A stretch of DNA of 64,000 nt from assembly GCA_029245245.1 (NCBI GenBank), contig JAQWPT010000034.1, forward strand, positions 62,001 through 126,000, written 5' to 3'. Source of the stretch: Phycisphaerales bacterium (lineage in GTDB: Bacteria > Planctomycetota > Phycisphaerae > Phycisphaerales > SM1A02). Positions 57,835 to 61,310 of this stretch are shown piece after piece. The translations under genes were made by a program, and so were the position numbers. Within the stretch, counting starts at the first letter, position 1. Every line of letters starts with the position of its first letter. The notes beneath the pieces are model-generated. The model ran no database searches. It saw only the letters and a list, made by a program, of their open reading frames with translations, and was not told the origin of the DNA.

Positions 57835-58830
57835 ATGTTGATCTACGCGGGAATCGATGAAGCAGGATACGGACCGATGCTCGGTCCGCTCACCATCGGC
57901 TGCTCCATCTTCTCCATGCAGGACCATGATGCGGCGACAGGCGCCCCCGATCTCTGGTCGCGACTTGATCACGCGGTGTGCCGCGGCCGGCGGGACCGTG
58001 GCGGACGGCTGGCCGTCGACGATTCCAAGAAACTCAAGGGTGCCAAGGGAGGACGACGCCACCCCCTGCATCACCTTGAGCGTGGCGTGCTCGCATTCCT
58101 CGGAGCCACCGAGGATGCGGCGGACTGGCTTGGCGCACTGGATGACATCGATGTCCTTTCAAAACTCGGCGCCTCCGTGCCCGATCATGCCTGGTACCAG
58201 GGATGCACCTCGCTTCCACTGGGCGAGGACCGTGGACTGCTGGGCATCGCCTCCGCCCGGCTGAAACGGTCCATGGCCGAAGCCGGCGTATCCTGCCGAC
58301 GCCTGTCCTGTGAACTCATCGATGCGGATGCATTCAACCATGAGGTCGGGCGCACGGGGAACAAGGCCAGCGTCAACTTCGAGGCCGTGCTCCGCCGGGT
58401 CCAGGAACTGCGGACGGAATTCCGTGACCACGACCTGCATGTCGTGATCGATCGCCAAGGTGGCCGGACCCGCTACCGGCAGGACCTCCAGTACGCATGG
58501 CCCGATGACATGATCCAGGTGCTCGACGAGGATCCCCGTCTCTGCCGGTACCGACTCCGCACCAGCGGCTCCCACGACGGCGCCGGATGCTCCATCACCT
58601 TCGCACAGGGTGGAGAGGATCGACACCTTCCCATCGCGCTGGCTTCGATGACCGCCAAGTACTGCCGTGAACTACTGATGATCCGAATGAATACCTACTT
58701 CACGACTGCCTGCCCGGGCCTGGACCCCACAGCCGGCTACGTGCAGGATGCGAGGCGGTACCTGCAGGACATCGACGGCATCATCCAGGAACGTAATATC
58801 AACCGGGATCAACTGATCCGTTCCTGTTGA
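57835..58830 (+). CDS. RNase HII-like protein with large internal insertion
   Basis: The 331-residue product begins with the RNase HII motif 'YAGIDEAGYGPMLGPLTIG' (Asp8-Glu9). It has 'VDDSKKLKG', a third acidic strand 'LHVVIDRQGGRTRY', then 'ALASMTAKYCRELLM' and 'LDPTAGYVQDARRYL', matching the AASxxAKxxRD and GYGTxxH-region order of RNase HII. Typical RnhB is ~200 residues. Here about 110-130 residues are inserted between the second and third motifs, and Arg-Glu replaces Arg-Asp in the fourth. It probably still cleaves RNA in RNA/DNA hybrids, but a changed substrate is possible. It follows the GGT-like gene by 21 bp. Confidence 0.75.
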   Translation: MLIYAGIDEAGYGPMLGPLTIGCSIFSMQDHDAATGAPDLWSRLDHAVCRGRRDRGGRLAVDDSKKLKGAKGGRRHPLHHLERGVLAFLGATEDAADWLGALDDIDVLSKLGASVPDHAWYQGCTSLPLGEDRGLLGIASARLKRSMAEAGVSCRRLSCELIDADAFNHEVGRTGNKASVNFEAVLRRVQELRTEFRDHDLHVVIDRQGGRTRYRQDLQYAWPDDMIQVLDEDPRLCRYRLRTSGSHDGAGCSITFAQGGEDRHLPIALASMTAKYCRELLMIRMNTYFTTACPGLDPTAGYVQDARRYLQDIDGIIQERNINRDQLIRSC

Positions 58831-58847
58831 TCTCGCTGTATTTATCA

Positions 58848-58875
58848 TTGACAGCGGTCAATTGGTCGATAGAAT
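58848..58875 (+). promoter_or_regulatory. fusA promoter (sigma-70 type) with 8-bp hairpin close to +1
   Basis: Perfect TTGACA (58848-58853), 16-bp spacer, TAGAAT (58870-58875). Predicted +1 is near 58882. The perfect stem-loop GCCGAAAT-actg-ATTTCGGC starts seven bases later. The 16-bp spacer is shared with the topA and tRNA-Asp promoters. Confidence 0.75.
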
Positions 58876-58974
58876 CCCGTGCTACAAAGCCGAAATACTG
58901 ATTTCGGCCACAGTCACATCACGGCGAACTCGAGGGGGTACACCCCCCCTGACGAACCTGCAAGGAGGATTTCC

Positions 58975-59022
58975 ATGCAGATCGAAGATGACGAGATCGT
59001 CCGGCCCACCTGCGGTACTTGA
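58975..59022 (+). CDS. Possible 15-residue leader peptide upstream of fusA
   Basis: ATG at 58975 is preceded by AAGGAGG (58962-58968) at an optimal distance, the best ribosome-binding site in the window. The product would be MQIEDDEIVRPTCGT, stopping at TGA 59020-59022. The stop lies at the base of the first of three stacked hairpins. The +1 frame stays open from here to 59083 (VLDSLRESAQAEAG..., ending RWVT), so a +1 shift or a one-base sequencing error would give a ~36-residue peptide. No regulatory codon run is obvious. Confidence 0.4.
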   Translation: MQIEDDEIVRPTCGT

Positions 59023-59195
59023 CTCCCTAAGAGAGTCGGCCCAGGCGGAAGCCGGGCCACGAGCAGACAGGTGGGTCACGTGACGTGACCCCTCCACAAC
59101 CATGACCAGTGCCGACGGAAGCAGATGCTCCCGCCATGCACCTCCTTCTTCAAGTCTCAGAGACCCCGAGGGTCCTTCCCCAGGAATCCAGCACC

Positions 59196-61310
59196 ATGGC
59201 CATTGACCTCAACTACATACGCAACATCGGCGTCTGTGCCCACATCGATGCCGGCAAGACGACCGTCACCGAACGGGTTCTGTACTACACCGGTCGAAAC
59301 TACAAGATGGGTGAAGTGCACGAGGGAACTGCAACCATGGACTTCCTCGAGGAGGAACAGGAGCGCGGCATCACCATCCAGTCGGCTGCGACGACCTGCC
59401 CCTGGGACTTCCAAGGCAAGACCTACACCGTGAACCTGATCGACACCCCGGGCCACGTCGACTTCACCATTGAGGTGGAACGATCGATGCGGGTGCTCGA
59501 TGGTGCCGTGACCGTCTTCGATGGCAAGGAGGGCGTGGAAGCCCAGTCCGAAACCGTCTGGCGACAGGCCGACCGCTACAACGTGCCCCGCCTCTGCTTC
59601 ATCAACAAGATGGACAAGGTCGGCGCCAACTTCGAATTCAGCTTCAACTCGATCATCGAGCGACTCGGGGCCAACCCCATCGCAGTTCAGTTCCCCATTG
59701 GCGCGGGTGATGAACTCCAGGGCCTCATCGATCTCATCGAGATGCGAGCCTTCTACTTCGACAGCGGAGAACTCGGGGCGGTCATCGAGGAACGTGATAT
59801 TCCCGACGACATGGTGGATATCGCTGCACAGTGGCGACACCGCATGCTCGAATCCATCGCCGAACTCGACGATGAATTCATGGAGCAGTACCTCGAGGAC
59901 GAGGAGAGCGTCGATGAGGAATCCATCCGGCGTGTCCTGCGGGCCGGCACGCTTACCCGCGAATGCACCCCGACTTTCTGCGGCGCCGCCCTTCGCAACA
60001 TCGGCATCCAGCGCCTGCTGGACGGCGTCATCCACTTCCTTCCGAACCCGACCGAGGTCCCGCATGTCGAGGGAACGGATCCCAAGGACGAAGACACCAA
60101 GTTGACCCGCCCCAACGATCCTGATGCCCCCTTCTCGGCCCTGGTCTTCAAGGTGGTCTCCGACACCCACGGTGATCTCACCTACTGCCGGATCTATTCG
60201 GGCACGCTCAAGCAGGGCACCCGCGTACTGAACCCGGCCAATCGGAAGAAGGAAATCATCTCCAGGATCTACGAGATGCACGCCAAGGATCGCGAATCCC
60301 TGGATGAAGTCAGTGCCGGCCAGATCGTCGCCATCATCGGCCTCAAGCACTCGGTCACGGGCGACACGCTCTGCGATCAGGGTGACCCGATCGTGCTGGA
60401 ACGCATGCACTTCCCGGATCCAGTGATCTCGATGTCCATCGAGCCCATGACGACGGATGACAAGAAGAAACTGGGCGAAGCACTTGGCACGATCATGCGA
60501 GAGGATCCTTCCTTCCGCTCGAACTACAACGAGGACACAGGTGAAACGATCATCTCCGGCATGGGTGAACTTCACCTTGAGATCGTCAAGAACAAGCTTG
60601 TCCGGGACATGAAGATCGGTGTGAACATCGGAACGCCTCGAGTCAGCTACCGTGAAACGATCATGGGCGAGGCGAATGATGTCCGCGGCAAGTTCGTCAA
60701 GCAGACTGGTGGACGTGGCCAGTACGGCGACGTCGTCCTCAGCGTCGAGCCCATCACCGCCGATGAAGCCGAGGCCCAGGAACTGAAGATGAAGAACGGC
60801 ATCGTCTTCGTGGACTCGATCAAGCAGGGCGTGATTCCCCGCGAATACATCCCCTCGGTCGAAACCGGAATCCGATCCGCTGCCGTCTCCGGCATTCTCG
60901 GCGGATACCCCATGGTGAACGTCAAGGCCCAGCTGGTCTACGGTTCCTACCACGAGGTCGATTCAAGCCAGGTCGCATTCGAACAGGCAGGCGCCCTCGC
61001 CTTCCGACAGGCCTGCTCCCAGGCCGGGCTGACGCTTCTTGAACCCATCATGCGAGTCGAGATCACCACTCCGGAGGACTTCTTCGGTCCCATCAGCAGT
61101 GACCTTGCCAGCCGACGGGGACAGATCATCGACTCTGAGATTCGCGGCATCACCCGCATCATCTACGCCGATGTTCCGCTCTCGGAGATGTTCGGCTACA
61201 CCACGATTCTCCGCGGCATGAGCCAGGGCCGGGCATCCAGTTCCATGGAGCCCAGCGAATACCGGATCATGCCTCCAAATCTCACCGAGGAGGTCCTGGC
61301 CAAGACCTGA
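59196..61310 (+). CDS. fusA: Translation elongation factor G
   Basis: The 704-residue GTPase has G1 '[12 protein letters not shown]' (15-26) and switch I '[20 protein letters not shown]'. G3 is '[12 protein letters not shown]' and G4 '[13 protein letters not shown]'. Domain IV loops include '[14 protein letters not shown]'. The C-terminus ends '[20 protein letters not shown]'. The '[11 protein letters not shown]' switch and the C-terminal motif resemble the spdEFG1/mitochondrial EFG1 branch more than canonical EF-G. It catalyses translocation. It is not in a str operon here (no rpsL, rpsG or tuf beside it). The start [12 protein letters not shown] fits the family; the longer frame upstream has no support. 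Confidence 0.96.

Follow-up and report, generated by a model that had tools for sequence, protein, structure and literature searches.

The leader before EF-G in many Phycisphaerales is a likely RNA switch, so far undescribed, that would respond to ribosome movement and may adjust EF-G supply

To our knowledge, few cases of acidic nascent peptides acting as regulatory sensors are known. Among described systems, MgtL and mgtQ are acidic upstream open reading frames (uORFs) that, according to the excerpts of their reports, act through ribosome drop-off or pausing and serve Mg2+ transporters (PMC11282234, PMC8092293). The locus studied here is the leader of fusA in a Phycisphaerales bacterium, within what we call the window, the whole 64,000-nucleotide stretch of DNA that was analysed. 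On balance, we read this leader as a leader-peptide attenuator with an acidic peptide. An earlier note on the window had claimed a 15-codon ORF with a strong Shine-Dalgarno (SD) sequence ahead of fusA, and this ORF is present as claimed. The note overlooked the two diagnostic features: the encoded peptide is acidic, and the tail of the uORF can pair with a downstream hairpin.

The fusA start is the ATG at 59196, preceded by an intergenic gap of 365 nt. The earlier note was correct that EF-G is separated from the str operon, since the S12 gene rpsL lies on another contig (C20) than fusA (C10). For the same reason the arrangement expected for S7 control of the str operon, with fusA downstream of rpsL-rpsG in one operon, was not found. 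Eighty fusA loci were fetched; five (L064, L078, L104, L105, and L110) were dropped because they had no usable upstream DNA, and the remaining 75 together with the window gave 76 leaders. In 55 of the 75 loci fusA is preceded by a relative of the RNase HII-like gene; this conserved neighbourhood takes the place of the str operon. The same genome (G000) also carries a second EF-G-type gene (L113, G000:C30:121757-123760), which is 36% identical and exceeds the NF009891 and NF009381 cut-offs. One locus, L089, comes from a contig labelled Gammaproteobacteria, but its EF-G and leader group with Phycisphaerales and it is probably mis-binned. The features of the window locus are listed in the table.

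Table. Coordinates of the features at the fusA locus, in window positions.
Feature	Position	Strand	Details
RNase HII-like gene	57835-58830		Directly upstream of fusA; exceeds the Pfam RNase_HII cut-off but falls well short of those of the NCBIfam equivalogs
Sigma-70-like promoter	58848-58875	+	TTGACA-N16-TAGAAT; 11/12 consensus positions
5′ hairpin (predicted by folding)	58889-58908	+	GCCGAAAU-ACUG-AUUUCGGC
Shine-Dalgarno of uORF	58962-58969	+	AAGGAGGA; near-perfect
Acidic leader peptide uORF	58975-59022	+	MQIEDDEIVRPTCGT; 15 codons; ATG 58975, stop TGA 59020-59022
Strand a (uORF tail)	58999-59005	+	GUCCGGC; complementary to strand d; A2 columns 41-47
Hairpin 1	59021-59037	+	GACUC-7 nt-GAGUC; begins inside stop codon; window genus
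Hairpin 2 (c:d)	59038-59058	+	Conserved; 3′ strand d = GCCGGGC at 59051-59057
Possible second partner of uORF tail	59068-59075	+	CAGGUGGG; tail CCCACCUG at 59005-59012; window genus only
Hairpin 3	59073-59091	+	GGGUCACG-UGA-CGUGACCC; 8 bp; window genus
fusA	59196-61310	+	Canonical elongation factor G (704 aa); TIGR00484, 909 bits vs cut-off 659.4

From the promoter, transcription would be expected to start near 58882. Both promoter hexamers are retained in all four nearest aligned relatives (L031, L032, L033, and L097), and a promoter in this upstream position argues against a transcription start below 59095, which the earlier note had named as a finding that would speak against it. Of 57 leaders, 37 have a promoter-like match in the 260 nt ahead of the uORF. 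When the alignment was read by eye, the arms of the 5′ hairpin differed yet remained complementary in the two relatives from the same genus.

The SD of the uORF has an energy of −11.4 kcal/mol. This site had been called the best of the window; it ranks high but is not alone, with 14 of the 6019 start triplets of the two strands, its own counted, reaching that energy. Among ATG-first ORFs of at least 150 aa in the window, 1 of 116 has an SD as good. Compared with fusA, the uORF has the better SD energy in 49 of 57 leaders (means −8.05 for the uORF and −3.31 for fusA). The starts of these 57 uORFs are ATG in 34, TTG in 22, and GTG in one, and the stops are TGA in 41, TAA in 14, and TAG in two. 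The window uORF stands 221 nt ahead of fusA, and its acidic codons (E D D E) occupy 58984-58995. The earlier note had stated that the +1 frame stays open across the hairpins, and it does run for 35 codons without a stop, but the frameshift product that the note allowed for is not supported: across relatives the distances from uORF to fusA are 221, 219, 218, and 225 nt, so a fused product is not conserved. An anti-SD sequence, CCUCCUU at about 59142, could pair with the uORF SD in the window; by eye, it is not retained in L031 or L032, and it was rejected.

The earlier note had made its reading depend on conservation of the mini-ORF and stems in relatives, and both are conserved. In the alignment, the ORFs of the four nearest relatives read MQLEEDEIARPTCGT, MQLDDDEIVRPTCGI, MQHEEDEHARLR, and MQNEDDEYARVR. 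A scored scan combined with reading by hand found a short ORF with an acidic N-terminus in 57 of the 76 fusA leaders, for example LQEDEEEARLH, MPNDEDDDARPR, MPGDSDNDDDAGC, and MDDDDEMSEW; the SD sites of some (L087, L091, L098, and L101) are weak. The conserved mini-genes have about a dozen codons. Twenty of the 76 scanned leaders were set aside by hand as non-acidic, with L076 (MDQIKEGNIQAPLR) being borderline, and L050 was restored by hand, leaving 19 of 76 in which the scan found no acidic uORF.

A strict, label-free criterion was also applied (SD of −5.5 kcal/mol or stronger, 7–16 codons, and at least four Asp/Glu in residues 2–11). Of the fusA leaders, 41 of 76 passed it; among the controls, 2 of 322 upstream regions of other genes did so, and of 1520 shuffled leaders about 0.14%. 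One of the two passing controls is the L079 fusA uORF counted twice, seen from a mis-set start. Twenty-four further leaders from six families of the order, for which the fusA starts are merely estimated, gave five clear passes (L159, L165, L168, L174, and L175). L006 from this sample has three acidic residues, and L160-L162, read by eye, have LNDEDD after the same SD-TTG as L165. No acidic uORF was found in 15 of the 24, including every sampled member of families f5 (three) and f6 (five).

Among 18 pairs of relatives, differences in the acidic codons fell 29 times in the third position and 7 times in the first or second (p = 8e-9 against 1:2), a count that took codons acidic in either member of a pair and was somewhat favoured by the preselection of uORFs for acidity. 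The L063/L071 pair was left out for unequal length, and L065 stands in two pairs. Length changes within the aligned part of the uORF are whole codons, except in L050. Judged from these sequence comparisons, the acidity of the peptide is under selection. The codon-position bias and the whole-codon indels also mean that the uORF must be translated. In L050 (1404-1519) the SD, TTG start, and hairpin are conserved, but a frame break, which may be either an assembly error or decay, cuts the uORF short after six codons.

As the earlier note had described, three consecutive stems adjoin the stop codon and the last has 8 bp; the first of them in fact starts within the stop codon. For the segment 59018-59095 the folding energy is −36.9 kcal/mol (z −3.37; none of 200 shuffles as good), and the 400-nt leader fold has z −4.07 (0 of 100 shuffles equal). 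Hairpin 1 is replaced in other subclades by an outer stem enclosing the c:d hairpin, and in several subclades these outer stems differ in sequence while complementarity is kept. The 3′ strand of the conserved post-stop hairpin holds a near-invariant GGG. The sequence CAGGUGGG is retained in L031 and L032.

Strand a, which corresponds to the Ala-Arg codons at the end of the uORF, can compete with the 5′ strand c for strand d. RNAalifold on 33 leaders (alignment A2) chose a:d unprompted over the c:d hairpin. A2 excludes the near-copies L049, L057, L077, L083, and L085, as well as L050, L086, and acidic uORFs without the Ala-Arg tail. The a:d pairing is formed in 90.9% of cells (shuffles 88.0; 1 of 500 as high) and c:d in 88.3% (shuffles 82.3; 0 of 500 as high), but because a and c are alike and both pair with d, core a:d counts alone do not prove alternative pairing. 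A slide of one column cuts both pairings to about half.

In many leaders the last seven nucleotides of the uORF also match the hairpin loop, which extends a:d. The earlier note had proposed covariation analysis of fusA upstream regions, and covariation of this loop extension is clear between clades (permutation p ≤0.0005 across 24 groups). Within clades, permutation with L136 omitted as a copy of L131 gave p 0.0115 in one clade but 0.70, 0.16, and 1.0 in the others and 0.17 over all strata; in the window's own group the covariation was not significant. This limitation to one clade indicates that common descent accounts for much of the loop-extension covariation. By these comparisons the alternative pairing appears well supported between clades and modestly supported within them. 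Against shuffled tails, the tail-hairpin duplex reached p<0.05 in 15 of 57 leaders (mean z −1.06), the test being weak in GC-rich leaders. With the tail free, folding pairs at least five of the 12 tail nucleotides to the hairpin region in 34 of 38 leaders. Constrained folds predict that a ribosome in the acidic codons leads to a:d and a ribosome at the stop to c:d.

A covariance model, R1, gave 27 strong matches (E ≤1.2e-8) in 251 genomes of the order, one per genome. All 27 lie upstream of EF-G and within the window's family. Seven of these genomes were outside the earlier set, and in them the uORF and the tail-hairpin pairing are present; as R1 itself includes seven a:d pairs, the independent support from these new genomes is limited to the extension. 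Across 294 genomes of the phylum, a strong match was found in the window's genome only. Occurrence of the element at other genes was rejected: of the weaker R1 matches (E at least 4.6e-5), all 7 that were fetched lay away from EF-G, and chance seems to account for such matches.

On the EF-G tree, from which L081 is absent, leaders of the Ala-Arg type group in a single clade of 39 rows (the frame-broken L050 and 38 others; SH-aLRT 99). L086 falls outside this clade though labelled so by the same text rule. The outgroups have acidic uORFs without the Ala-Arg tail, and the acidic peptide therefore looks older than the hairpin switch. Rfam 15 gave no match in the window leader at E ≤1 and none in 18 relative loci at the gathering score. 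In open-licence PMC papers, we found no description of a fusA leader peptide or autoregulatory uORF, a Phycisphaerae leader peptide, or a planctomycete fusA RNA motif.

The earlier note had suggested ribosome-sensing attenuation or translational control. With its upstream promoter and two exclusive pairings predicted to depend on ribosome position, the leader fits ribosome-sensing attenuation best, whereas masking of the fusA ribosome-binding site by the switch is not supported, as folding gave the same accessibility in both states (0.506 vs 0.501, p 0.09). The earlier note had proposed to look for a short terminated transcript ending near 59095, but an intrinsic terminator there is not supported by the sequence: no hairpin with a U-run stands before fusA, and a five-T run between uORF and fusA occurs in only 3 of 38 leaders, none of them recognised as a terminator. 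An attenuator of the trp/his type was also rejected, because the uORF codons are mixed Asp/Glu, the target is EF-G, and the U-run terminator is absent.

In the attenuator that we propose, a ribosome reaching the uORF stop would cover strand a and let c:d form. A ribosome that pauses or drops off in the acidic codons, or fails to initiate, would leave a free, and a:d would form. The acidic N-terminal nascent chain may be the sensor of whether ribosomes pass through, since chains of this sort make ribosomes pause or lose stability (intrinsic ribosome destabilisation; MgtL, mgtQ). The choice between a:d and c:d would then set read-through into the fusA message, or its stability. Since neither an intrinsic terminator nor RBS masking was found, Rho or an RNase would be the likeliest reader. 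The region between the hairpins and fusA (59089-59195) is C-rich and G-poor (C 0.40, G 0.22), in the nearest relatives too, and could suit Rho loading. Downstream C exceeds G in 37 of 57 leaders, but this is missing in AT-rich subclades.

EF-G drives translocation through the acidic codons, so feedback on EF-G supply would be a natural purpose. That EF-G is the sensed quantity is a tentative suggestion, and the same tentativeness applies to the leader being a translocation-speed meter for EF-G itself. Ribosomes would have to cross the destabilising acidic codons and open a:d before falling off; with ample EF-G they would reach the stop and fusA would be held down, while scarce EF-G would lead to drop-off, formation of a:d, and a rise in fusA. 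If true, EF-G would be under direct autogenous control, exerted through the reaction step for which it is itself the catalyst. Drop-off caused by excess EF-G was set aside, since the excerpt of the paper describing it links the effect to residues of low reactivity, for example Pro (PMC8934632).

A slightly less probable view, to which we give perhaps one chance among several, is that the uORF senses Mg2+ or ribosome stability as MgtL does, reporting 70S stability (Mg2+, bL31, ABC-F) with EF-G as a mere target. Early acidic nascent chains are described as behaving so in MgtL and mgtQ (PMC11282234, PMC8092293). The window's genome encodes bL31, but it has no ABC-F protein above the EttA cut-off, and what is regulated here is a translation factor instead of a transporter for Mg2+.

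Freeing a post-termination ribosome requires RRF and EF-G. It is conceivable, though rather unlikely, that the leader senses recycling, the post-termination ribosome at the uORF stop being what matters and the acidic stretch merely tuning traffic. When EF-G is short, ribosomes would linger at the stop, a would stay covered, c:d would persist, and fusA would be raised. The position of the stop, which abuts or lies within the first stem, is consistent with this, and the strong SD would keep ribosomes coming. However, acidity, the most conserved property across subclades with differing tails and hairpins, is left unexplained, and several outgroup uORFs are acidic without an Ala-Arg tail.

We think it improbable that EF-G or a ribosomal protein binds to the c:d hairpin in classic autogenous control, with the uORF being secondary, for instance as a ribosome standby site. 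The conserved hairpin with its near-invariant GGG agrees with such binding, and ribosomal protein leaders are described as acting in this way (PMC2965389, PMC2704228). Yet the uORF appears to predate the hairpin and is more widely distributed, and the codon-position bias and whole-codon indels require its translation. A functionless short ORF of ordinary chance in a GC-rich leader is hardly credible, for although DNA of this kind often holds short ORFs and GC-rich hairpins and two control regions passed the strict criterion, it is contradicted by the strict-criterion counts, the conservation, the selection for acidity, and the position-specific covariance-model matches.

If the acidic-peptide attenuator that we favour stands order-wide before a core translation factor, acidic-peptide destabilisation would have been recruited to govern the translation machinery itself. 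The family would also explain how the EF-G level is set outside the str operon.

Compared with known systems, the streptococcal fusA attenuator (PMC2965389) and the Pelagibacter rpsL motif (PMC2704228) are likewise structured leaders that can precede fusA. The former is described as an rpsL-leader with a terminator and the latter is a three-stem junction, and the excerpts of the two reports mention no uORF. The toiL uORF of topAI in E. coli is described as sensing ribosome stalling and refolding its leader, as proposed here; it acts on the topAI RBS, and acidity is not reported for it in the excerpt (PMC12121999). The mgtQ uORF of mgtB in Salmonella resembles the fusA leader in being acidic (8 aa) and in that ribosome occupancy selects alternative stem-loops, but as excerpted it acts inside an operon on the mgtB RBS (PMC8092293), whereas RBS accessibility in the fusA leader is equal in both states. 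MgtL of mgtA in E. coli has, in its excerpted description, an EPDP motif, a Mg2+ importer as target, and a Rho site of its own (PMC11282234); the fusA leader differs in its longer acidic run, its EF-G target, and a Rho site that is putative at most. The two are alike in layout: in both, acidic residues directly follow the start codon of a short uORF, and the ribosome drop-off by which MgtL refolds the RNA and determines whether the following gene is expressed (PMC11282234) is proposed for the leader of fusA.
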